Shown here one piece after another: positions 9,794-45,086 of a DNA stretch of 64,000 nucleotides. The stretch's first letter is position 1. The number at the start of each line of letters is the position of its first letter. Under the pieces are notes generated by a model. It worked only from the letters and a program-made list of their open reading frames with translations. It was not told the DNA's origin and searched no databases. The translations under genes and the position numbers were made by a program. Origin of the DNA: Leishmania infantum JPCM5 (lineage: Eukaryota; Euglenozoa; Kinetoplastea; Trypanosomatida; Trypanosomatidae); assembly GCF_000002875.2 (NCBI RefSeq), contig NC_009411.2, positions 620,001-684,000 on the forward strand, given 5' to 3'.

Positions 9794-12700
9794 ATGCACC
9801 CCGAGTCCACCGCCTTCCGCACGCCATCTTCGGGTGTAGCCACGGAGGACACAACAATCATACCCTCGTACTCAAAGGCAGAGTCGACAGATGGTGCGCC
9901 TCCGGTCGCCCCGCCAGCCGCACTCGCAGACCCACAGCTAGCGACTTTATCAGCCCAAAGTGTGAACGCATCTTTTGCACTCACATGCCGCAGCAGCTCC
10001 ATGCTTGCCTCCCAGGCGCAGCTATCCAGATCGCACGGTCCGGCATCGATATCTCGCCCTCACTCCGACGTCGGCCTCGACGGTGAGCCAGCGGCGCCTT
10101 TCGAGGTGCCGCACTTCTCGACTGTCTCTCTCCTCATTGTGTGGATGCTGGACTGCGCTGTGGGGCTCTTCTCGCTTGTCCTGTCTGACGTGTACGTGAA
10201 CCAGTACCCAGAGTTTCCGCTCATGTTCTTTCTGGCTCTTGGCTCGCACTTGAACGTCCTAGCTGGCTTCTTTGTATATCTGCTCGGCCGCGAGAAGTAC
10301 GGCCACAAGGTGTATCGGTTCTATCAGCCTTTTGCCGGCGGTGTGCAGTTTGTCACGCTGCAGTGCTTTGGAGTCACGTGCGTGTCGTCCTCGCTGCTGC
10401 TGACGGCGGCGTACGCGCTTCTCTTCGAGCCCTCAGTGAATCATTCGCACGGCTTCATGAGCACGATTGGCGTACTGGCGCTGTTTGGCAACATTCTTCT
10501 CTTGCTCTCGCTGCGGAGTTTCACCTTCCACGACTGCGCCAAGGCCTCGGAGCCGGGATCGACTACCGCGTCATTGGGCACCGGCTCAGCCTTCCTGGCG
10601 GACAAAGGCCTCTCCGCATTCCTGCGGTATCTGCGCCGCCGCCCCAATGCAGAGAGCGCGCTGGAGGTGGCATTGCTGACGGCACAGAGCGCGTTCAGCA
10701 TGGTGGCGATCCGCTTTCCACGGCTGCAAGAGATTATCTTCCGCGTGAACCTTGCGATCACACTGGCCTGTGGGACGTTGAGTCTGTGCTTCGTTGGCTA
10801 TCGGCGCTCTCTCGGCTTCATCAGCTTCCGCTTGCGGATGCATCGCACCTTTGACACCGTTCTTCTGTGGCTGTCGCGGTTTCTGTACGTCGCCGCAGCG
10901 TTTGCGAATGTGCTGTTGCTCATGGACGCCGGTGTGCACACAGTAACGCCGTTGTCTGTGCTAGCCGTGCAGGGACTGAGCGTCGTGAGTTGCGTGGCGC
11001 TGCTGATGTTTCTGCGCACGATGCGCTATGAGGCTCTGGCGAATACGCCGAACGTTCCAAGCAGTGTGTTCGAGCTCGGCGGCGTGGTGGCGGTGGCGAC
11101 GGCGTTTCTGCTAGCATGCCTGAACGTGAGCATCTTTTTTTATGTACAGAACTACCCCGACGGCCTCGACGAGGCGGTGGAGGGGACAAGCTGGACGTAC
11201 CAGGGGGTGCTGGTGTTTGTGTCGCAGCTGGCTCAGCTCGTCTCTCTGCTACCAACGCCCATGGTATACGTGTCGGGCGTGATTATGCATGACGATCACT
11301 TTCGCATGCTGGCCAGAAACCGCTCAGTCGAAACGCTACCGGTGTTGCTGCTGCAGGCCCTGAGCTATCTGCTTTACGTCGCCGCCATCATCAGTTTCAC
11401 GCTCTTTCTGTCCAGCAGTGCTCCTGCCATCGCCCCGCTGGAGGCGGTGCTGTCAACGCTCAGCGTTTTCTGCATGACGTGTGCCGTACGACTGTGCAGC
11501 TCCTTGACGTACAAATTGCGCGCCTTTCTCGCTGCCGTGGTGGAGGAGCCCCCGTCGGAGCCGACCACGGTGGGGAAAAAGCCGGCTACCAAGGCGGTCG
11601 TAAGCCTTGACTCAGTGCTCCCTGTACACACCGAGCCGTCACCCGGCCTTCGCAGCAGGATGGCGGAGGAGCTGGCCAACACAGCTTACATCATGAACGG
11701 TGAGATGATATTCAGCTACCTTCTGTGCCTAACGAACTTGCTGCTGCGGCTCCTTGTTGACATTTCTTTGCATCATGTTTGGGGCGAGGTGGAGCTGCCA
11801 CACGCGCGCCTCATCATGATCGCCAACGCCTGCTTCATCGCGTGCGTGCCGCTGGCGCACTACTCGGGCAGAGACAAAGGCGTGCAGGTTTTTCACCCCT
11901 TCACCGGCAGCGGCAGTTTTGTGGCGCTGCAGGTGCTTGGCTGGATGATCTACGCGATTTGCGTCATCATCATCATCCTCGGTACCATTGTCTCCAGCAA
12001 CTCCAACAGCGTTCCCGCCGAGTGGCACGCTCTTATAGCGGAGGGCCCTGTGATGTACACCCTGTTCGGCGTCCTGGAGCTGATTCCGGTCGTCCTCATC
12101 ACGCTGTCCATCGCGATCGAGGCCCGCTACACCATGGCGACGGCACTGCAGCAGCGCTTGGCGAAGGAGTCGTTCCTGGAGCTGCGCCGCTTCATGCGCG
12201 AGGAGTTAGCAGACAAGTCGGACGAGGAGAAGGCCGTTGCCCAGGTCGCGTTCCGAACGCTCATGACGGCAGCGCTGCACAGCTTTGACATTCCGTGCAC
12301 CGACGGCCTCCTCCGCATATATAAGGACCCAGCGGCAGCGCGACGTACCGGGAGAGGCTCCCGCGCGCAGAACAGCTGCAGCACCGGCAGTGACGATGAC
12401 GACGGCAGCGCCGAAGAAAACCAAAGCAGAGAAAGCTCTGACTGGAGTTGCAGTGGCGAGGACTTGACGATTCGCCGCCGGCGCCAAGAGGGCGCACGTG
12501 TGCTTGTGTTTCTGCTCTGCTGCGCGTCAGCTGCCTTCTTCGTGATAGCGGCGTTCATGGCGAAGGTAATGGTTTTGTCGTTGGCGTTCGCTGTGACTGC
12601 GATGCTCATATGCACGATTTCGTGCATCGGCTTACATGCTGGGTATGGGATGGTCCTCCACGGTGAGCCGAGCGTGTATGTGCCATTTATGCCGTTCCGC

Positions 12701-14833
12701 GGTGGGTCACAGTTTGTTGTTCGGCAGATGGCAGGATGGTGCTGCTACGCAGGCGCGTTCCTGGTGACGCTAATCACGTCGATCGAGTCCGCGGAGGTGT
12801 CCGCCACGGCGATGCTGATTGCCGCGTTGCTGTCGGTGACGAGTCAGGTTTTCATCTTCAGCTCTGTCCCTCTGTTTTCCCACCGGCGCGGCGAGCCGAC
12901 GTTCCTGGAGGTGAACGGCGAGGGCATCGTCGCCCTGTTCACCTTTTCAGGCGCGATGGCGTTTGGACGAGTTTACACTCCCCTTGTGGCCTTCTTTGGG
13001 CGCGACACACAGCACTACCTCCATTACGGCGACGAGAGCTCCGCCTCCCGCAGAACACGCGTGCCATTTGTGCTGGCAGTGATGAGCCTCTCACTAGCGG
13101 TGCCGTGTACGCTCATCGCCCTGAGTCGAACGAAGCTGCAATGGGAGCGTGTCATGCACACCGGCACCGCAGCGGAGGCGGTATCCAAGCAAAGCCCCTC
13201 GTCCACGAGGAGGGAGCGTCATCGCACAATGTTGGCGAAAGGGATTTCGAACCTGATAGAGGTACTTGCCATCGTGCTGGCCACCTTTGCCCCACTGTCG
13301 ATTGGGTTCTTGATATTTTACTTTTTTACGCAGTACACGCCGCGTCTGGTGCAGGTGATGGAAGCCTACCTGCCGGTCTGCTTCGCTCTCACCGCGCTGA
13401 CACTGGTGCTGTCTGTGGTGCCGTATGTGGTGGACGTCGGCGTGCCGCTGTTCGTGGTGACGGTGCGTGTGACGGTTGTGACGTGGATGCTATACTGCAT
13501 GCCCGTGCTCGCTGGGGGTCTCCTGCTCCTCCCGGCGCTGATTGCGCCGCGGCACAGCACCCTCTTCCTTGCGTGCGGCGCGTTTGTCATGCTGATGGCG
13601 GGCAACTTCAAGAAGGTGCGGCTTGCGATGAAGCTTGCGGTGTACGCTGTGATCGGCTACCTGACGTACCAGAGGTGCATGCTGCACGCCGTGGGCGGCC
13701 CGTCGTGGGGGATGGCGCGCGCGCTTGGCGTGCACGTCGTGGACTGCGCGGTGCTCGGCGCGTGGCTGTGGTACCTCCCGCTGTACTCGGGCAAGCCGTA
13801 CCACACAGGGTCGCAGCGCAGCCTGCGCTTCACGGAGTTCGCGCGCAACTACCTGTTTGCCGACGCGGTGAAGTACTTCAACTTCCGCGTGATTGTGGAC
13901 GACCCCGCCGTGCAGATGCGGGACGACACGTCGCAATACCTGTTCTCCTTCCATCCCCACGGCGTGTTCCCCGGCACGGCACTGTTTGCGTCTCTGACGG
14001 CGGAGTGGGCCCTCAAGGTCGGCGTCAACGCGCAGCGCTATGTGTCGACGCATGTCGCGAGCGTTGTTTTCAACGCGCCACTGCTGCGAGACTTCAACCT
14101 GCGTCTCGGTGCGCTGTCAGTGAGCCGGCGCTCTGTGGAGGCGAGCCTCAAGCGCGGCAACAGCGTCCTTATCGTGACGGGTGGCCAGGCGGAGATGCTG
14201 CGCACGCAGGTAAGCTCGGAGAGGATGATCCTGATCACGCAGCACACGGGCTTTATACGGCTGGCTATCGCATCACGGGTGCCGCTGGTGCCGCTGCTGT
14301 GCTTTGCGGAGAACAACGTGTTGGGGATGCTGCAGTTTCCGCGCATCCAGCGCCTCTCGCTCAAGCTCCTGGGCTTTCCGTTCCCGGTGATTCCCCTTGG
14401 CCGATTCGGTCTGCCTCTGCCGTTCCGCACGCCGCTGACGCTTGTGGTGGGGCCGCCGCTTGCTATTCCCGAGGGTGCGGACGAGAACAACCCCGATGAC
14501 ATGCGGCGCGTGTCGGAGGCGTACTTCCAGTCGCTGAAGGACCTGTTCTACCGCCGCCGCGCGGAGGCCGGCTACCCTGGCATGGAGCTCGTACTGCTGA
14601 ACGAGAAGGAGGAGGCGCGGAAGCGCAGGCAGGCCCGCGAGGCCGCGGCGTCCACGGCGAAGAAGCAGCGTAAAATGGTCTGTTGCTGCTTGCTGTGCGT
14701 GTGTGTGCTTGCTGCCCTCCCCCTTCCTCCGCTGCGCGTGGGCGATCTCATCTGCTTCGTGGCGGCAGCTGCTGGCGCGTCGCTGATCTCTTCACGGATT
14801 GGCTGCACTCTGCGTCGTGGCATTGCATCTTGA
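9794..14833 (+). CDS. Polytopic membrane protein with C-terminal DGAT2-type acyltransferase
   Basis: The start is the first ATG of protein-like sequence. After a Ser/Thr-rich N tail (1-105) come about six modules of roughly four predicted helices each (near 107-244, 289-412, 425-579, 624-785, 902-1030, 1043-1230). A motif close to PF-GG-QFV-LQ--GW recurs (178 QPFAGGVQFV, 701 HPFTGSGSFV, 967 PFRGGSQFV) and is weaker at about 349 and 509. An acidic Ser-rich linker (about 840-900) splits modules 4 and 5. The end is a DGAT2 domain: HPHG at 1387-1390, TGGQAE, HTGFIRLA and LVVGPPLAIP. DGAT2 enzymes acylate diacylglycerol to triacylglycerol at the ER; actual substrates are unknown here. The modules resemble no family I recognise. 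The last 54 codons probably result from compensating indels beside the gap; the duplicate stops where 14673 would be. Confidence 0.8.
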   Translation: MHPESTAFRTPSSGVATEDTTIIPSYSKAESTDGAPPVAPPAALADPQLATLSAQSVNASFALTCRSSSMLASQAQLSRSHGPASISRPHSDVGLDGEPAAPFEVPHFSTVSLLIVWMLDCAVGLFSLVLSDVYVNQYPEFPLMFFLALGSHLNVLAGFFVYLLGREKYGHKVYRFYQPFAGGVQFVTLQCFGVTCVSSSLLLTAAYALLFEPSVNHSHGFMSTIGVLALFGNILLLLSLRSFTFHDCAKASEPGSTTASLGTGSAFLADKGLSAFLRYLRRRPNAESALEVALLTAQSAFSMVAIRFPRLQEIIFRVNLAITLACGTLSLCFVGYRRSLGFISFRLRMHRTFDTVLLWLSRFLYVAAAFANVLLLMDAGVHTVTPLSVLAVQGLSVVSCVALLMFLRTMRYEALANTPNVPSSVFELGGVVAVATAFLLACLNVSIFFYVQNYPDGLDEAVEGTSWTYQGVLVFVSQLAQLVSLLPTPMVYVSGVIMHDDHFRMLARNRSVETLPVLLLQALSYLLYVAAIISFTLFLSSSAPAIAPLEAVLSTLSVFCMTCAVRLCSSLTYKLRAFLAAVVEEPPSEPTTVGKKPATKAVVSLDSVLPVHTEPSPGLRSRMAEELANTAYIMNGEMIFSYLLCLTNLLLRLLVDISLHHVWGEVELPHARLIMIANACFIACVPLAHYSGRDKGVQVFHPFTGSGSFVALQVLGWMIYAICVIIIILGTIVSSNSNSVPAEWHALIAEGPVMYTLFGVLELIPVVLITLSIAIEARYTMATALQQRLAKESFLELRRFMREELADKSDEEKAVAQVAFRTLMTAALHSFDIPCTDGLLRIYKDPAAARRTGRGSRAQNSCSTGSDDDDGSAEENQSRESSDWSCSGEDLTIRRRRQEGARVLVFLLCCASAAFFVIAAFMAKVMVLSLAFAVTAMLICTISCIGLHAGYGMVLHGEPSVYVPFMPFRGGSQFVVRQMAGWCCYAGAFLVTLITSIESAEVSATAMLIAALLSVTSQVFIFSSVPLFSHRRGEPTFLEVNGEGIVALFTFSGAMAFGRVYTPLVAFFGRDTQHYLHYGDESSASRRTRVPFVLAVMSLSLAVPCTLIALSRTKLQWERVMHTGTAAEAVSKQSPSSTRRERHRTMLAKGISNLIEVLAIVLATFAPLSIGFLIFYFFTQYTPRLVQVMEAYLPVCFALTALTLVLSVVPYVVDVGVPLFVVTVRVTVVTWMLYCMPVLAGGLLLLPALIAPRHSTLFLACGAFVMLMAGNFKKVRLAMKLAVYAVIGYLTYQRCMLHAVGGPSWGMARALGVHVVDCAVLGAWLWYLPLYSGKPYHTGSQRSLRFTEFARNYLFADAVKYFNFRVIVDDPAVQMRDDTSQYLFSFHPHGVFPGTALFASLTAEWALKVGVNAQRYVSTHVASVVFNAPLLRDFNLRLGALSVSRRSVEASLKRGNSVLIVTGGQAEMLRTQVSSERMILITQHTGFIRLAIASRVPLVPLLCFAENNVLGMLQFPRIQRLSLKLLGFPFPVIPLGRFGLPLPFRTPLTLVVGPPLAIPEGADENNPDDMRRVSEAYFQSLKDLFYRRRAEAGYPGMELVLLNEKEEARKRRQAREAAASTAKKQRKMVCCCLLCVCVLAALPLPPLRVGDLICFVAAAAGASLISSRIGCTLRRGIAS

Positions 14834-14940
14834 GGCATGCGGGTGTTCGCAGCGCCTCGCTCCCATCTTTCGCCCTCTCGCACCCCTTCCCGTTTTCCCT
14901 CTTCCGATATCGCGACACATGGGTGGCGGGGGGGGGGGGT
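13579..14940. repeat. Segmental duplication, acyltransferase end, copy A
   Basis: Matches 19885-21250 base for base over the coding part (offset 6306) until small indels appear after about 14665, near the gap. The left edge falls inside the ORF, just upstream of an internal ATG. Confidence 0.9.
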
Positions 14941-14953
14941 TAATCAAAAAAAA

Positions 14954-15052
14954 NNNNNNNNNNNNNNNNNNNNNNNNNNNNNNNNNNNNNNNNNNNNNNN
15001 NNNNNNNNNNNNNNNNNNNNNNNNNNNNNNNNNNNNNNNNNNNNNNNNNNNN
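14954..15052. other. Assembly gap (99 N)
   Basis: A run of N. Comparing both flanks with the second copy shows that left-side offset is 6306 and right-side offset is 9812. If the copies are collinear the true missing sequence is about 3.6 kb, covering the unknown mitochondrial-type gene and the first about 269 codons of the transporter. The N count is therefore probably a placeholder. Confidence 0.9.
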
Positions 15053-15690
15053 GGTTCTCGAGCATCCTGTTCGCGTTCCTCGCACAGACGAACGTGTCGA
15101 GGGTGGCGCGCGAGACGCCGAACCCGACGCCCGGGCGGATCTCGAAGGACCTAGCGATCAGCCAGGTGGTCTGCTGTGCGCTGTACGTGCTCGCGGGCGT
15201 GTTCGGGTACCTGGAGTTTGGCGAGCAGATCACGGACTCGATTCTGCTGTACTACAACGTGCGCAGCGACGTGCTTGTTGCGATCGCGTACGTTGGGATC
15301 GGCGTGAAGATGTGCGTTGGGTTTGCGATCTGCATGCAGCCGTCGCGCGACGCGGTGTACTACTGCCTCGGCTGGCACTTCTCGATGTTCAAGGACATCC
15401 GGACGGTGCCGTTCTGGCTGAACGCTGTGATCTGCACTGGGCTCTCCGTGCTTGCGCTTGTGCTGGGGCTGTTCATCCCGAACGTGAACGTCGTGTTTGG
15501 GCTTGTGGGCAGCTTCTGCGGCGGGTTCCTGGGGTTCATCTATCCAGCTCTGTACGTCATGTACGCTGGCAACTGGGGCCTGCGGCAGGTGGGCTGGCTC
15601 CACTACGTCTCGACGTACTTGCTGCTGATCGCCGGCGTGGTTGCTGTTGTTTTCGGCACGGTTGCCTCTATCTACGGCGAGGTCCACTGA
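15053..15690 (+). CDS. AAAP-family amino-acid transporter, copy A, 3' part only
   Basis: The frame enters from the gap and is open to the stop at 15688-15690, giving about 211 residues. They match residues 270-481 of the copy at 24057 except for a threonine for alanine change (EQITDS versus EQIADS) and a short disturbed stretch next to the gap (NVSRVAR versus NVFEVAR, from a lost T and gained G). Several hydrophobic helices and the conserved GWHFSMFKDIRTVPFW loop are present. Unlike copy B, this copy reads correctly through that loop, so it shows what the intact C terminus looks like. The 5' two thirds is presumably hidden in the gap. Confidence 0.85.
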
Positions 15691-15931
15691 GCAGCGGCGA
15701 GGCAGCCGCGCTTGTCTGCGTTGTTCGCTGCGTGTTTGCTTCACATGTGTGGAAGAGGTGGAGGATAGTGTGGAGGAGGGGTAAAGGCGCCGGTGGAGTG
15801 GTTTTTGGGTGCGGCCACCGAGCGCGCGGCGCCTATGGGCGTTCTCCGCACGCCTCGCCACCCGCTTCTCTCCCTCTTTCCCTCTCCACATCTCCCTCTG
15901 CGTGCGTGCCTTTCTTCACCTTCCTTTGCCT
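15053..15931. repeat. Segmental duplication, transporter end, copy A
   Basis: Collinear with 24865-25744, including about 240 bases of 3' flank; divergence begins right after the shared CTTTGCCT. Confidence 0.9.
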
Positions 15932-16244
15932 CCGCGTGTCTTTGGTTTTGTGGGTCACAGGAGCGCTGCAGAGAAGGGAAGGCGTGGGAGAGCATAGCAA
16001 GCAATCGTCTCTAGGAGCTGACGACCGCCGTGTGGCCGGACGCGCGGTGTTTTCGTGTTTTGTGATGCTCGTTCTGTCCGATGTTGTGTGAGAAATCGGT
16101 TTTGCACACGCGGGTGTCTCTGGCCACACTCGACGGAAAGCTCGTAGGGTAAGTTGTTGGGTATTAGTGGACCATTTGTGCTACGTGTGTGCGTACGCTG
16201 GTTTTGTGTGTGCGTGTGTTTTTTATTTTTCTGGGTTTCGGCAT

Positions 16245-16698: not shown

Positions 16699-17426
16699 TG
16701 TGCGCCGGTGCTGTGAAGCACAGCTGGCGTGATGTGTGTGCCATCCAGACAAAGGCATCCAGACATCGGAAGGGCGAGAGTGGCTGACGAAAGGAGGCGC
16801 GAAGAGGGCCATACGAATCAACCCAGAAGCGCATGCGTGCGAGATATGCGGCGTCCCCCACGTCCGACCGCGTCTGCACCGATGAGGCACAGATGCGGGA
16901 AGCATGGAGAGAGCACCCCGACGCTCACCACCGAGCCCTCCATGTTCCCATGTTGCGAGCCCCCACACCGCATTGCAGGATGTCGCGACTGGAAGCAGCT
17001 GAGAGGGCAACGCATGGGGCACACAGGCAGAGTGCGCAGGGTCTCGGAGGGTTCTGACCTGAAGGTGGCCAACCCCCTTCCTGAGCTCATCCGGCGTGCG
17101 CCTGGGCCACCCCTCTACCGCCCGCAAGGCAGACGCCGCCACTGCTTCCGCCCTCGAGCATGACTCTGGGCACGGCCCGCATTGGATCCAGGCATGCATG
17201 CCACCCAGGCCTGTGTGGCGCCCATCGCGCAGCACGTAGCAGAGGAAGGGACGAGGAATGGCAAGGAGAGCCGGTACGACGCATGACCCCGATGCCCACG
17301 GCAGGCAGTGCGTCCTTGGCGACCAGAGTGTGCTGCCGTGGTGCAGCAGAGGCAAGGTGGAGCCGTGGCTGTGCGTGCGTATGTTTGCTGACTTGCTCGC
17401 GGGTGGCATATAATGGGCACAGTGGA
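16699..17426. repeat. SIDER-like repeat, copy 1 of identical 728-bp pair
   Basis: Identical by eye over all 728 bases to 43109-43836, in the same orientation. Its right end (GCTGACTTGCTCG then ATATAATGGGCAC) is shared with the element at 53 kb and, inverted, with the window end, which defines one edge of the family. It sits in the presumed 3' UTR downstream of the transporter. Longer than the roughly 550 bases usual for SIDER, so it may include part of a DIRE. Confidence 0.65.
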
Positions 17427-19750: not shown

Positions 19751-19884
19751 GGCGTTACCGTGCCCCATCACCTTTTCACGCACTGCTTCCGGGCACAGGA
19801 ACGCGCTGTAGTGGGAGCGCCCGACCGTTTACCCTCGTAGGGGAGGGGTCGCAGGCACGCGCAAGGCGAGTGGTGTGTTGGCGC

Positions 19885-21250
19885 CGCGTTTGTCATGCTG
19901 ATGGCGGGCAACTTCAAGAAGGTGCGGCTTGCGATGAAGCTTGCGGTGTACGCTGTGATCGGCTACCTGACGTACCAGAGGTGCATGCTGCACGCCGTGG
20001 GCGGCCCGTCGTGGGGGATGGCGCGCGCGCTTGGCGTGCACGTCGTGGACTGCGCGGTGCTCGGCGCGTGGCTGTGGTACCTCCCGCTGTACTCGGGCAA
20101 GCCGTACCACACAGGGTCGCAGCGCAGCCTGCGCTTCACGGAGTTCGCGCGCAACTACCTGTTTGCCGACGCGGTGAAGTACTTCAACTTCCGCGTGATT
20201 GTGGACGACCCCGCCGTGCAGATGCGGGACGACACGTCGCAATACCTGTTCTCCTTCCATCCCCACGGCGTGTTCCCCGGCACGGCACTGTTTGCGTCTC
20301 TGACGGCGGAGTGGGCCCTCAAGGTCGGCGTCAACGCGCAGCGCTATGTGTCGACGCATGTCGCGAGCGTTGTTTTCAACGCGCCACTGCTGCGAGACTT
20401 CAACCTGCGTCTCGGTGCGCTGTCAGTGAGCCGGCGCTCTGTGGAGGCGAGCCTCAAGCGCGGCAACAGCGTCCTTATCGTGACGGGTGGCCAGGCGGAG
20501 ATGCTGCGCACGCAGGTAAGCTCGGAGAGGATGATCCTGATCACGCAGCACACGGGCTTTATACGGCTGGCTATCGCATCACGGGTGCCGCTGGTGCCGC
20601 TGCTGTGCTTTGCGGAGAACAACGTGTTGGGGATGCTGCAGTTTCCGCGCATCCAGCGCCTCTCGCTCAAGCTCCTGGGCTTTCCGTTCCCGGTGATTCC
20701 CCTTGGCCGATTCGGTCTGCCTCTGCCGTTCCGCACGCCGCTGACGCTTGTGGTGGGGCCGCCGCTTGCTATTCCCGAGGGTGCGGACGAGAACAACCCC
20801 GATGACATGCGGCGCGTGTCGGAGGCGTACTTCCAGTCGCTGAAGGACCTGTTCTACCGCCGCCGCGCGGAGGCCGGCTACCCTGGCATGGAGCTCGTAC
20901 TGCTGAACGAGAAGGAGGAGGCGCGGAAGCGCAGGCAGGCCCGCGAGGCCGCGGCGTCCACGGCGAAGAAGGCAGCGTAGATGGTCTGTTGCTGCTTGCT
21001 GTGCGTGTGTGTGCTTGCTGCCCTCCCCCTTCCTCCGCTGCGCGTGGGCGATCTCATCTGCTTCGTGGCGGCAGCTGCTGGCGCGTCGCTGACTCTTCAC
21101 GGATTGGCTGCACTCTGCGTCGTGGCATTGCATCTTGAGGCATGCGGGTGTTCGCAGCGCCTCGCTCCCATCTTTCGCCCTCTCCGCACCCCTTCCCGTT
21201 TTCCCTCTTCCGATATCCGCGAACGCAGTGGTGGCGGTGGTGGGGTTAGC
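19885..21250. repeat. Segmental duplication, acyltransferase end, copy B
   Basis: Second copy of 13579-14940. The left breakpoint is 10 bases before the ATG at 19895, where unrelated spacer joins the ORF. Confidence 0.9.
19895..20980 (+). CDS. Free-standing DGAT2-type acyltransferase (duplicated domain)
   Basis: A 361-residue ORF identical to the C-terminal domain of the gene at 9794, starting from an internal methionine (MLMAGNFKKVRL). Two hydrophobic segments lie near residues 12-28 and 45-65. The catalytic HPHG is at 122-125, with TGGQAE, HTGFIRLAI, VPLLCFAENN and LVVGPPLAIP in the usual order. Ordinary DGAT2 proteins are 340-420 residues with HPHG after one or two N-terminal helices, so this truncated copy has the complete domain. 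It lacks all six upstream membrane modules. The stop at 20978-20980 (GCA GCG TAG) gives the correct end for the family. Whether it is expressed is unknown; a splice-acceptor-like tract lies upstream. It could instead be a non-functional by-product of the duplication. Confidence 0.75.
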   Translation: MLMAGNFKKVRLAMKLAVYAVIGYLTYQRCMLHAVGGPSWGMARALGVHVVDCAVLGAWLWYLPLYSGKPYHTGSQRSLRFTEFARNYLFADAVKYFNFRVIVDDPAVQMRDDTSQYLFSFHPHGVFPGTALFASLTAEWALKVGVNAQRYVSTHVASVVFNAPLLRDFNLRLGALSVSRRSVEASLKRGNSVLIVTGGQAEMLRTQVSSERMILITQHTGFIRLAIASRVPLVPLLCFAENNVLGMLQFPRIQRLSLKLLGFPFPVIPLGRFGLPLPFRTPLTLVVGPPLAIPEGADENNPDDMRRVSEAYFQSLKDLFYRRRAEAGYPGMELVLLNEKEEARKRRQAREAAASTAKKAA

Positions 21251-24056: not shown

Positions 24057-25503
24057 ATGACGCAGAGCACCCACTGCCCGGACACGCAGATGGACCGCGT
24101 GAGCGAGGGCGGCGCGTCCTTCAGCGATGACGCGGTGATGGTGAACAATGTGGGTGAGGCGCAGCTGAAAGACATGGTGGACCGCCCGATCATGCTGGAC
24201 ACGGACGAGCTGGTGTACGCGACGCGGTATCGGCCGCGCAGCTGGCTAACTACTCTGCTGAGCAAGGCTGTGCCGCACGGTGGGACGCTGTCGAACGCGT
24301 ACAATCTCGGCGCCGTGACGCTGGGCTCCGGCGTGATTGCGCTGCCGTCCACGTTCCAGGCGACGGGTGTGGCCACGTCGGTCATCGTGCTGATCGCGAT
24401 CACGATGAGCACTGTGTACTCGGTGTACATCATGATGCAGGCCGCGGACAAGACGGGTCGGCGGCTGTACTCGTACGAGGCGCTGGCGCGCGGGCTGCTT
24501 GGGCGCGGGTGGGACTACCTTGCTGCGTTCCACTTGTGGGTGTTCTGCTTTGGGTCGTGCGTGTCGTACGTGATCTCGACAGGCGACCTGCTGTCGCGCG
24601 CGACGGACGACCCGTCTGTGAACAGCTTCGTGCGGTCGGTGTGGGGCAACCGCGTGCTTGTGATCATTATCTGGTCGTGCGTGATGCTGCCGCTGTCGAT
24701 CCCGAAGGAGATCAACTCGCTGCGCTACTTCTCGGTTGTTGGGGTGTCGTGCATGATGAACTTTGTGGCTGTCATCGTGATCCACTCTGCGATGAACGGG
24801 TTCAAGAACGGGCGGCCGATCCACCAGCCGCATATGTTCAAGACGGGCAACAACGCGATTGTGGGGTTCTCGAGCATCCTGTTCGCGTTCCTCGCACAGA
24901 CGAACGTGTTCGAGGTGGCGCGCGAGACGCCGAACCCGACGCCCGGGCGGATCTCGAAGGACCTAGCGATCAGCCAGGTGGTCTGCTGTGCGCTGTACGT
25001 GCTCGCGGGCGTGTTCGGGTACCTGGAGTTTGGCGAGCAGATCGCGGACTCGATTCTGCTGTACTACAACGTGCGCAGCGACGTGCTTGTTGCGATCGCG
25101 TACGTTGGGATCGGCGTGAAGATGTGCGTTGGGTTTGCGATCTGCATGCAGCCGTCGCGCGACGCGGTGTACTACTGCCTCGGGCTGGCACTTCTCGATG
25201 TTCAAGGACATCCGGACGGTGCCGTTCTGGCTGAACGCTGTGATCTGCACTGGGCTCTCCGTGCTTGCGCTTGTGCTGGGGCTGTTCATCCCGAACGTGA
25301 ACGTCGTGTTTGGGCTTGTGGGCAGCTTCTGCGGCGGGTTCCTGGGGTTCATCTATCCAGCTCTGTACGTCATGTACGCTGGCAACTGGGGCCTGCGGCA
25401 GGTGGGCTGGCTCCACTACGTCTCGACGTACTTGCTGCTGATCGCCGGCGTGGTTGCTGTTGTTTTCGGCACGGTTGCCTCTATCTACGGCGAGGTCCAC
25501 TGA
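24057..25503 (+). CDS. AAAP-family amino-acid transporter, copy B, with a 1-base frameshift
   Basis: The intact reading would be about 481 residues with a hydrophilic N tail (1-80) and about eleven membrane helices. GGTLSNAYNLGAVTLGSG in helix 1 is the amino acid/auxin permease signature, and SIPKEINSLRYFS and FEVARETPNPTPG are typical of the trypanosomatid expansion of this family. These are plasma-membrane or lysosomal amino-acid carriers; the substrate cannot be read from sequence. An extra G in a G run at 25182-25184 shifts the frame; copy A has GG there. Downstream of the shift the correct frame resumes to the stop at 25501-25503. As assembled the shifted frame continues to 25829. A consensus error is as likely as a true pseudogene. 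Confidence 0.85.
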
Positions 25504-25744
25504 GCAGCGGCGAGGCAGCCGCGCTTGTCTGCGTTGTTCGCTGCGTGTTTGCTTCACATGTGTGGAAGAGGTGGAGGATAGTGTGGAGGAGGGGTAAAGG
25601 CGCCGGTGGAGTGGTTTTTGGGTGCGGCCACCGAGCGCGCGGCGCCTATGGGCGTTCTCCGCACGCCTCGCCACCCGCTTCTCTCCCTCTTTCCCTCTCC
25701 ACATCTCCCTCTGCGTGCGTGCCTTTCTTCACCTTCCTTTGCCT
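24865..25744. repeat. Segmental duplication, transporter end, copy B
   Basis: Second copy of 15053-15931, differing by the inserted G near 25183, one A/G substitution near 25045 and small changes next to the copy A gap. Confidence 0.9.
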
Positions 25745-28700
25745 TCGGTCTCTCTCTTGGCGACACTGCTGTTGGCAATGCAGTGCCGATCTGCGCCTGA
25801 GCGTCTTGCACTGCGTGTATTCTGACTGAGTAACGATCAATGTAACTTTCCGGGTCTGCCTGTTCCGCTGTGTATGTGTGTCTGTGCGGCGGTGGTGCGA
25901 AAGGGAGAGCCGAAACAAAAGGAAAAGATGGTGGATGGTATGGACAACGGCGAGTAAAACCATCACGGCCGTGTGGCGGAAAGAGTGGCAGAACGGCGGT
26001 CAGGCGTCGCATGATCAGAGGAACGAGTCGCCGCGCTTTTTGTTTTTCGAAGAAGGGAATCTCCATCGGACAGGAACGCTGCGTTAACTGGGAATGTACC
26101 GAAGAAACGGAAACGAAAAACGTGAGACATGTCCAGCAAGCAAAGAAAAAAAATTGGACACGACGAGCAGGAGCGCTGAAGGGCGCGACTCGCGGCATCG
26201 ACTTTTTCGTTTTATGTTGTCCATGCCGTGGTTCTCCTCGCTTTCTCTCCCTCTAGTGCTCTAGCGCAAGGAAGTCTTCCGTTGATCTGTCAGGGATATG
26301 TTTCTTCCTTTTGGGGGGTGGGAAGAGGAGGAGAGGGCTGCGTTTATGTCTGTGTGTGAAGCATGCGAAAGCCACCGCCTTTATCTTCCCCGCTCGCTCA
26401 CAAGATAAAACGGGAAAGCGAAACGAATAAAAACGGGCATTCCCTTGAACGGGGACGAGGGGGGGGCGCGAACCTGTCACGCCGTCTGCCAGGGAGAAGA
26501 AGCGAGAGCGCAACAACCACAAAAAGACGAATATGCCAAGGAAGAGTAGTGGGGGAGCGCACCCGTGCAGCATGCTCTTGAAGGGGATACGGAAGCATGT
26601 TAGCTCTCTATCTGTTTTATTCTTGTTTTTTTTTCTTCTAATGTGTTAGTTCTTAAACTCAAGCTTCATCGCTGTATCGCTACGTCTGTGCCCGCTTGTG
26701 TTCCGCTGACTGATGATACCGTTTTTCATCGACTTCTTTGTTATGCTTTTATTTAATTTCTCTCTGGGTCAGTGGTGCTTTTATTTTTTTTTCATGGATA
26801 GGTCTCTTCGGTACCCACCCACCCACCCCCTGCTGCTGTGCGGTGCTCATCTATACGCACAAGCAGCACCCGCCGCCGCCGCAGCAGCAGAAAAAAAAAT
26901 CGTTGCCCACGACGTATCTCTTCAAGGAAGCATTCTTTGAACAAAGAATCATCCCCCCTCCCTGCCCCAAACACCAAAAAAAAAGAGAGGAAGTACGGCC
27001 CTCACCCCACGCAACATGCACACGACCACGCAGTCCCCCGGTCGTCTATTATTATTTGCATGGGCAAATATCCTTCTTTTAGCCGACTTTGCATTCCAAA
27101 TCCACCGCTTTCCCCGTGTTGAGGTGCGATGTATTTATGCATGTGTATACACACATATACATGTGTGTATACACATACTTTCCTCTGTCCCGCTTCGCAT
27201 CTCTTTTCCCTTCTTCCAGCACGTGTGCGAGTTGCGTGGTGGGGTGAGGAAGAGGGCCGGAGGACGAAACGAAAAAAAAAACACGAAAATGTGATAGCGC
27301 ACCGGGACACACGTGTGTACACACCAGCGCCTCTTTCTCGATCGATACCTGCGGAGCACCTCATTTGTGTGTGCGTATGGTGTTGCGCATCTCCCTCCCT
27401 TGAATCAAATGATTGCTTGGTGAGATCATCTGGTATGGCGCATTACCTTTACTATTATTATTTCGGTTGTGTGCTTTCCGCCTCTTCTTTGCTCTCGTTC
27501 CCGTAACTCTGCGTGCGTGTTGTGTACGTATGCGTGCGCCAGTATATGTATATGCGCGGCCATTTTGTGCCTAGTATTATTCTTGTCGTCTGTTTTTTTT
27601 TTCTTTTCCGCTTCCCCTCCTCTGTCTTTCTCGTTCCCGTTTCCATTATTTTTGTCTTGTATTGAATGCTTGCCCCTCCCCCTTTTTTTGTGGACAATGT
27701 ATCGCAGTACTGTTATGCTGGCCGCCGACGCGAAAGAAACGAGGGAGAATGCTACTTTTTGATTTTATTGTCTTCCTGATGTTCCTCTTGCACTCCTCTT
27801 TGGCCTTGCACACCTGCTGTAAATGAAAACCACGGCTTGGTCGCCTGCTATCTTTTTGCCACCCTTTTGCGCCTCCTCGCCACGGTGATGCCAGTTTTTT
27901 TTTTTTTTTCGCCCTCGGTTTATGCGCCTGTTCGTGCGTGCGGCGGAGCAGGGCAAGGCACTAGAAAAGGGCGCGCGTACGGCACGAAACTGTATATCTT
28001 TCCCCGCGGAGGTGAGGTGGGGTGAAAGGAGCATGGTTGAAAAGTGGCTAGTTGAGCCGTTGAGTCACCACACACGCGAAGTACCCCGCTAGTGGCTTTA
28101 TCGACTAGACTGAAGGGGGAGGGGGAGGCTTTATGCTCATGGCAATGCTGTGTGTGTGTACGTGTCAAAGCCTTTTCAAGGTCTTCTCTCCCCTCCCCCT
28201 CCCCTCCCTCCTCCCTTTTTTCTCCGCTGTTGACTTCTTTGTTTTACGTATTCTTTTTTTTTAATGGACGCTTCTCCTCTCTTCTCCGTCGTGCTTCTGT
28301 GTCGTTTCGTTATTTCCTCCTCCGTATCGTCTGCACGCCCGTTGAGCGGGGCAGTGAAGCCGCGAAGCTAAAGAGACATATCGGTGGGATGTTGCTGACA
28401 CCAGCCCGCGTTTGGCAACCCTCTACGCGCCCTCTTCGTACTATTATTTCCGGCATATCCGCTGGTGATGGCGGGTGGCGTTCCTCTTGCGCTCTTTGTG
28501 GCCGTGCTTAGTAACGGGTTCTGCTCGAAAAGGCCGCTGGAAAACGTTGGAAACAAAACCCGTCTAGTGTCCTTTAGGCTGCATTGTGTAGAAAACACAA
28601 GGTGCAGACACTTAGACATGCGCACGCTAGCGCCTTTCTCTGTCGCTCGCGAAGAGACAAGACACACACACACACAGGTAAAAAGCGGAGACCAGAAGGC

Positions 28701-43108: not shown

Positions 43109-43836
43109 TGTGCGCCGGTGCTGTGAAGCACAGCTGGCGTGATGTGTGTGCCATCCAGACAAAGGCATCCAGACATCGGAAGGGCGAGAGTGGCTGACGA
43201 AAGGAGGCGCGAAGAGGGCCATACGAATCAACCCAGAAGCGCATGCGTGCGAGATATGCGGCGTCCCCCACGTCCGACCGCGTCTGCACCGATGAGGCAC
43301 AGATGCGGGAAGCATGGAGAGAGCACCCCGACGCTCACCACCGAGCCCTCCATGTTCCCATGTTGCGAGCCCCCACACCGCATTGCAGGATGTCGCGACT
43401 GGAAGCAGCTGAGAGGGCAACGCATGGGGCACACAGGCAGAGTGCGCAGGGTCTCGGAGGGTTCTGACCTGAAGGTGGCCAACCCCCTTCCTGAGCTCAT
43501 CCGGCGTGCGCCTGGGCCACCCCTCTACCGCCCGCAAGGCAGACGCCGCCACTGCTTCCGCCCTCGAGCATGACTCTGGGCACGGCCCGCATTGGATCCA
43601 GGCATGCATGCCACCCAGGCCTGTGTGGCGCCCATCGCGCAGCACGTAGCAGAGGAAGGGACGAGGAATGGCAAGGAGAGCCGGTACGACGCATGACCCC
43701 GATGCCCACGGCAGGCAGTGCGTCCTTGGCGACCAGAGTGTGCTGCCGTGGTGCAGCAGAGGCAAGGTGGAGCCGTGGCTGTGCGTGCGTATGTTTGCTG
43801 ACTTGCTCGCGGGTGGCATATAATGGGCACAGTGGA
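43109..43836. repeat. SIDER-like repeat, copy 2 of identical 728-bp pair
   Basis: Same 728 bases as 16699-17426 with no difference found. It directly abuts the RT/RNase H fossil, whereas copy 1 lies downstream of a zinc-finger fossil. Confidence 0.65.
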
Positions 43837-44611: not shown

Positions 44612-45086
44612 CTGCCAAATGCCGAACCTCTTCTGGTGGTGACAGGGTCAGGCACCCGCGACGTAGGGAGGTGAGAGCGACTCACTGCTACGGATGTCGG
44701 CGGCCAGGCCCTGGATGGCGTGGCGTGGGAGCGACCTGCGACAGCGAACACGCTTGTGCCATCCATGTGCTAGGCAGAGCGTCATGGTGACTCGAGCGCA
44801 TCCCATCTGGCCCTCGCACTGGCCACTGGTGGTAGGCAGCCTGCGTGCCGCCCCGAGGCGGGATGCACCAAGGGTGGCGACCGGCACGGTGGGGGAGCGG
44901 CTGTGCGGCTGCCTGCGACGCGTGTGCTGAGGGCAGAGGTTTGGGGCAGAGGCCGTGCTCAGATGGCTGAGTCGGGTGCACTGCTGCAACGCGCGTGTCT
45001 ACGTCTGCTCCGCACCACGCGGATGGGGCCCATGGTCGGGCCGGGGGCCGAGTGCCGCTTCGCTCATGTCACATGGCAGAGAGTGG
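44612..45086. repeat. SIDER-like repeat, copy 2 of 475-bp pair
   Basis: Direct repeat of 2435-2909 with three substitutions. Followed by an A-rich stretch (GAAGAGGAAAAAATG), compatible with a retroposon tail. Confidence 0.6.

Follow-up and report, generated by a model that had tools for sequence, protein, structure and literature searches.

A gene of Leishmania infantum JPCM5, located at positions 9794-14833 of the forward strand in the 64,000-nucleotide stretch of contig NC_009411.2 analyzed here (the window), encodes on a single chain five repeated four-helix membrane modules, a membrane-rich linker and a C-terminal acyltransferase domain of the DGAT2 family. The reading frame is free of interruption over 1679 residues and carries a DAGAT match in its C-terminal part, in agreement with a preliminary description of this DNA, made from the sequence alone, which had placed a membrane array and a DGAT2 enzyme on one chain. 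This combination is a real and old architecture and, as far as our searches of the open literature show, one unstudied in kinetoplastids. We tentatively propose that the protein is a polytopic acyl-CoA:lipid acyltransferase of the endoplasmic reticulum (ER), whose acceptor, by analogy with a thraustochytrid enzyme, would most likely be a sterol and otherwise diacylglycerol.

Architecture of the fusion protein

The catalytic domain matches the Pfam family DAGAT (PF03982) over residues 1341-1593 with an E-value of 5.7e-28 and 98.1 bits, against a gathering cut-off of 22, and its HPHG motif (residues 1387-1390) is unvaried in 36 of 36 aligned rows. The PlsC/GPAT acyltransferases carry HX4D where DGAT2 has HPHG, and lack the array. 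The modelled domain has the PlsC/GPAT-like acyltransferase fold; Foldseek itself gave no match at an E-value of 0.001, and the MBOAT profile (PF03062) is not among the Pfam matches of the protein listed to an E-value of 10. The activity predicted for the domain would be an acyl-CoA-dependent esterification of a lipid alcohol.

Ahead of the enzyme, the average hydropathy of 28 aligned rows gives 30 segments, 28 of them within residues 122-1319 (20 in the modules and 8 after them), and the single protein sequence alone gives 30 segments in the same interval; these counts rest on a simple hydropathy scale and replace the 24 helices or so predicted in the preliminary description. Two AlphaFold models, both built from a 36-row alignment, are consistent with this layout. 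The model of residues 105-1299 is helical throughout (mean predicted local distance difference test score, pLDDT, of 75.3; predicted template modelling score, pTM, of 0.70), and that of residues 1041-1634 has helices first and then an acyltransferase domain of mixed structure (pLDDT 80.7, pTM 0.72).

Candidate four-helix blocks were cut from the alignment and their family profiles compared with hhalign. Among the five modules M1-M5, seven of the ten pairs exceed 90% probability (highest value 98.3%), the other three being M1-M2 (69), M2-M3 (79) and M2-M4 (49.5). Profiles reversed with their composition kept gave at most 2.65% in 42 comparisons, seven profiles compared with their own reverse at most 3.84%, and 60 shuffles in blocks of seven columns, which keep the local composition, had top values of 37%, 25% and 7%. 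Self-alignment for an internal repeat was the check named beforehand as able to overturn the idea of a repeated array, and the repeat was found. The number of modules had been put at about six and is brought down to five by the profile comparison: the region of residues 1036-1220, tried as a sixth module, matches no module (best value 7.2%, and 14.6% for a shorter cut at 1036-1125) and for this reason is not counted. Judged on its sequence, region 1036-1335 is membrane-rich and contains no demonstrable sixth module.

The motif shared by the modules starts in the loop that joins helices 2 and 3 and continues into helix 3. It begins at P179, P702 and P967 in M1, M4 and M5, each within one residue of the position given in the preliminary description (178, 701 and 967), and the best-kept columns of the module alignment include P (83%), Q (83%), G (78%), G (71%), F (69%) and W (65%). 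The weaker versions attributed to the other modules hold for Leishmania, where the motifs of M2 and M3 are degenerate, and do not hold for all the relatives: the M2 motif is partly kept in type B relatives (the two paralogue types are described below), and that of M3 is complete in T. cruzi-type A as well as in several rows of type B, as in PFRGSAGFVFLQALGW of P0019 (T. cruzi marinkellei, type A) and PFKGPLEFVVLQSAGW of P0032 (type B).

The distribution of near-membrane charges over 36 rows gives an orientation to these loops. The ten loops following even module helices have on average 2.1-5.6 lysine plus arginine (K+R) residues, whereas the ten following odd helices have 0.4-1.7, with no overlap between the two sets (U 100, p 1.8e-4). 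Even loops are longer, and the difference is weaker and overlapping when expressed as K+R per residue (p 0.011); by net charge it gives p 0.0036. In the linker past M5 the separation is not clean (2.6 for odd loop 21, 2.1 for even loop 24). From these counts, the motif loops and the inter-module linkers probably face the cytosol.

No known family was recognized in the array. Nothing exceeded the cut-offs there in Pfam (seven proteins scanned, namely P0001 and six relatives), in NCBIfam, or in the PDB sequence search with the single protein and the profiles A2 and A3. The fold search returned a mixture of helical-bundle proteins and receptors (vinculin, alpha-catenin, GPCRs, heme A synthase) with no prominent family; it was run with the whole array model, so that a single module may still have a known fold. 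Thus neither the Pfam scan of the seven proteins nor the PDB sequence and fold searches indicated a channel, a flippase or a sensor. One observation points the opposite way. At the N end of the type B relative P0025, DUF6264 (PF19779) matches residues 20-177 with an E-value of 1.3e-4 and 22.7 bits, below its cut-off of 31, in a stretch which begins in a region rich in Pro, Ala, Ser and charged residues; the same family is in the precomputed domain list of P0026 (type B).

Table 1. Positions in the window of the array-DGAT2 gene and of its parts
Feature	Positions	Strand	Remarks
Array-DGAT2 fusion open reading frame (type A)	9794..14833	+	1679 residues as read
Module M1	10115..10528	+	residues 108-245; four predicted transmembrane helices; hhalign, model, tree
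Motif PFAGGVQFVTLQCFG of M1	10328..10372	+	residues 179-193, between helices 2 and 3
Module M2	10640..11038	+	residues 283-415; weakest module; hhalign, tree support 32
Module M3	11063..11518	+	residues 424-575; hhalign, tree
Module M4	11687..12148	+	residues 632-785; hhalign, tree
Motif PFTGSGSFVALQVLGW of M4	11897..11944	+	residues 702-717
Module M5	12485..12883	+	residues 898-1030; hhalign, tree
Motif PFRGGSQFVVRQMAGW of M5	12692..12739	+	residues 967-982
Membrane linker, array to enzyme	12899..13798	+	residues 1036-1335; about 8 hydrophobic segments
DGAT2 (DAGAT, PF03982) domain	13814..14572	+	residues 1341-1593; Pfam, structure model
HPHG active-site motif	13952..13963	+	residues 1387-1390
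C-terminal tail	14666..14833	+	55 residues; no counterpart in the 9 relatives with ends compared

Distribution and age of the fusion

Database protein searches yielded 36 distinct relatives (27 + 8 + 1), named "putative diacylglycerol acyltransferase" in the databases. The fusion, which the preliminary description proposed to look for in other kinetoplastids, recurs across trypanosomatids: the DAGAT domain is present in 35 of the 36, the exception being P0038, a chain of 753 residues which breaks off within M4 and is apparently a fragment. The array region (residues 105-1030) is more than half filled in 34 of 35 aligned relatives, P0022 beginning past M4; P0015 lacks M1. The named sources include L. 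mexicana (the nearest named protein, 90-91% identity), L. tarentolae (with the orthologue P0004), L. panamensis, Porcisia, Novymonas, Leptomonas, Angomonas, T. cruzi, T. rangeli, T. grayi, T. theileri and T. vivax, and no row named T. brucei was found among the 36.

Two separate quick trees, one for the N part with 35 rows and one for the DGAT part with 36, both split the proteins with a support of 100 into two paralogue types, A (22 rows in the DGAT tree, the window protein included) and B (14 rows). Since both types hold members from Trypanosoma and Leptomonas, the fusion and its duplication are most likely older than the split between these genera. A further tree was built from 55 sequences, i.e., the five modules of 11 of the 36 rows taken from both types, in all of which M1-M5 are present. 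Each module lies on one side of a branch, with 4 changes against a mean of 34.1 after shuffling (none of 200 shuffles was as low), and the Shimodaira-Hasegawa-like branch supports (SH-aLRT) are 99 for M1, 32 for M2, 92 for M3, 99 for M4 and 96 for M5, so that the grouping of M2 is weakly held. Because the modules group by position across both types, the simplest reading of this tree is that all five were in place before types A and B parted. The A/B pairs P0009/P0026, P0010/P0024, P0013/P0025 and P0021/P0036 have equal longest-contig figures in their records, which suggests that the two genes are neighbours. In the L. infantum genome itself, the searches found neither a type B gene nor copies of the array elsewhere, the four places matched being all DGAT2 genes.

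This conservation bears on the possibility that the fusion is a gene-calling or assembly artefact. A gap of N at 14954-15052 and a duplicated gene end in the window speak for it, but both parts are found on one chain in separate assemblies (L. mexicana, L. panamensis, Leptomonas and T. cruzi marinkellei), and on these grounds we regard the artefact as refuted.

Proposed activity and its alternatives

A steryl-ester synthase is proposed because no characterized enzyme accounts for the esterification of cholesterol in T. cruzi and Leishmania and because DGAT2C of A. limacinum (GenBank MF926506.1) resembles the fusion protein. According to its published description, DGAT2C carries 10-12 putative N-terminal helices, which are missing from DGAT2D, the thraustochytrid triacylglycerol (TAG) synthase; it is located in the ER and uses acyl-CoA and sterols to form steryl esters, a reaction that requires the second His of the HPHG motif (PMC10686087). 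Without helices 1-8 it is active and its product increases, which the authors credit to more protein and not to more activity, whereas without helices 1-10 it is inactive (PMC10686087). Thraustochytrid proteins of the same kind, AlASATa-AlASATb, have N-terminal parts without a PDB fold according to their authors, and a PlsC-like C-terminal part (PMC8821962). The L. infantum protein has in common with the DGAT2C/ASAT enzymes a C-terminal DGAT2 domain with HPHG behind a long polytopic region, here of 28 segments with helices in both models. It differs by the number of helices, about 28 against 10-12 extra ones, and the thraustochytrid region is said to be specific to that group, with no repeat modules mentioned for it in the available text. 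DGAT2C did not turn up in the protein searches for relatives, whose length limits and word pre-selection deprive this absence of weight.

Under the steryl-ester reading, the protein would sit in the ER membrane with its catalytic domain at the membrane surface, where it would receive acyl-CoA on the cytosolic side and draw a lipid alcohol out of the bilayer; the neutral ester would be released and go to lipid droplets. The reaction would be the ACAT-like steryl-ester synthesis of trypanosomatids, diacylglycerol being the second choice. The array would anchor the enzyme in the ER bilayer and regulate its level, and the helices nearest the enzyme may help to pick the acceptor, as proposed for the shorter DGAT2C array. 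Cholesterol esterification has been shown in T. cruzi, whose ACAT-related enzyme is probably unlike the animal one, and is cited for L. amazonensis, the ACAT-related enzyme being described as not yet identified and characterized (PMC4466137); steryl esters are also made in T. brucei (PMC8860030). A T. cruzi "diacylglycerol acyltransferase" gene, which may or may not belong to the array-DGAT2 family, serves as a typing marker (PMC7402520). No paper on a kinetoplastid array-DGAT2 fusion was found among the matches listed in the open-licence literature, and the parts seen of PMC8851939, PMC8860030, PMC8561143, PMC5539062, PMC7402520 and PMC8219788 name no such enzyme. The preliminary description had called the system undescribed, which stands as far as a study of the kinetoplastid fusion in this literature is concerned and does not stand more broadly, the records already naming a putative diacylglycerol acyltransferase and the thraustochytrid DGAT2C/AlASATb being characterized.

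Several points weigh against a steryl-ester synthase. The sterol acceptor is assigned by analogy, and the DGAT2C array is likened by its published description, not by sequence comparison. The steryl esters could come from the LCAT/PDAT-type gene or from the two further DGAT2 genes of the genome, described below, and SOAT-type MBOATs may have slipped past the six-frame search. ERG10 orthologues are acetyl-CoA acetyltransferases, which catalyze another reaction. Such an orthologue is cited as a proposed 'TcACAT', and avasimibe, which inhibits animal ACAT, blocks the esterification in T. cruzi, whereas Sandoz 58-035 does not (PMC4466137). Finally, the authors of DGAT2C state that its helices are absent from the DGAT2 homologues of other eukaryotes (PMC10686087).

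The fusion protein could instead be a true DGAT, i.e., a TAG synthase with diacylglycerol as acceptor, the array being merely a heavy ER anchor, a possibility that we hold to be rather unlikely. The Pfam family and the database names are in its favor, and characterized DGAT2 enzymes mostly make TAG, DGAT2D among them. On the other hand, DGAT2D makes TAG without the extra helices (PMC10686087), and the genome holds a conventional DGAT2 gene on contig C25, whose 678-residue frame matches DGAT2 strongly, shares the catalytic domain with HPHG and lacks the array. In the genome search this gene is closer to the DGAT2 profile (267 bits against 103 for the fusion gene), and its domain is 27% identical to that of the fusion protein over 275 columns.

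We consider it more doubtful still that the array works by itself as a transporter, a scramblase or a sensor, linked in cis to the enzyme so as to import substrate or flip product, along the lines suggested in the preliminary description. An anchor would need less than five homologous bundles with a loop motif in common, columns of P, Q, G and GW return from one module to the next, and M1-M5 are all kept in the 11 tree rows of both types. Against these observations stand the lack of any sequence match over cut-off and of a clear transporter fold match, the first eight DGAT2C helices, dispensable for the product (PMC10686087), and the M2 and M3 motifs, largely lost in Leishmania. Moreover, no free-standing array was found among the relatives, the sole chain without DGAT being the apparent fragment P0038. 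Bacterial MprF-type synthase-flippases, the model for such a coupling, also fuse a polytopic N-terminal domain to a C-terminal lipid-modifying transferase; they belong to different families. A bolder reading, quite improbable in our estimation, would make the five modules one continuous lipid-handling scaffold, which takes up a lipid alcohol, such as a sterol that may come from the host, and passes it to the acyltransferase of its own chain, with the cytosolic PF-G--FV-LQ--GW loops as gates or docking sites; with the same low probability, the array would then be a new repeat-built membrane fold.

Other acyltransferases and the surrounding assembly

The PF03982 search of the genome contigs matched four places, on C25, on C27 twice (the fusion gene and a partial copy) and on C33. 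The C33 place (C33:355827, L004) is a third DGAT2-family gene with a short Pfam match, long low-complexity inserts and a kept HPHG. One LCAT/PDAT-type gene is present, on C9; it is perhaps the counterpart of LmjF.09.1040 of L. major, a putative phospholipid:diacylglycerol acyltransferase (PMC9769760). The MBOAT family, whose ACAT/SOAT and DGAT1 members share the proposed reaction (acyl-CoA to sterol or diacylglycerol) and are unrelated to DGAT2, gave 11 matches on C19 and C35 in a six-frame search which scores best candidates only and has no eukaryote control. Two C19 frames, out of these 11 matches, were typed against solved structures; only HHAT was clear in both, and one had weak DltB rows (E-values of 0.25-0.28). 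The MBOAT arrays at C19:561200-571634 and C35:850894-861328, distinct from the two typed frames, agree in match scores and in spacing, which suggests a duplicated or chimeric assembly stretch.

The partial copy of the fusion gene lies in the window: 13575-14937 is repeated at 19881-21245 with 99% identity, the second place holding the 3' part of the gene in a 361-residue frame that includes the DGAT2 domain. Over 13579-14663 (1,085 bases) both copies read identically; they differ at the start of the copy, in the last codons and downstream toward the N run. An unresolved overlap or a misplaced contig is a better fit than a truncated duplicate of biological origin, although the gene end may instead have been duplicated very recently. 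Residues 1625-1679 lie past small length differences from the second copy and adjoin the N run; together with their lack of a counterpart in relatives, this makes the 55-residue tail doubtful. It probably results from a frame artefact next to the gap in the assembly, and the natural end of the type A gene probably lies near 14670.

Past the gap, 15053-15934 is a near copy of 24865-25747 (99.4% identity). It belongs, with the fuller copy at 24057-25829, to what we take to be an amino-acid-transporter-like gene; the open frames of the two copies diverge part-way, which points to a length difference somewhere. Two dispersed repeats were also observed, 16699-17426 and 43109-43836 (728 bp, 100% identity) and 2435-2909 and 44612-45086 (475 bp, 99.4% identity).

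Taken together, these data describe a four-helix membrane module repeated five-fold, with no Pfam family over cut-off in the proteins scanned. If the five modules did form a lipid-handling scaffold, lipid capture and storage would take place within a single polypeptide. The question of cholesterol esterification in trypanosomatids becomes directly testable through this conserved enzyme of DGAT2 type, which carries a polytopic array and resembles a protist sterol acyltransferase of proven activity.
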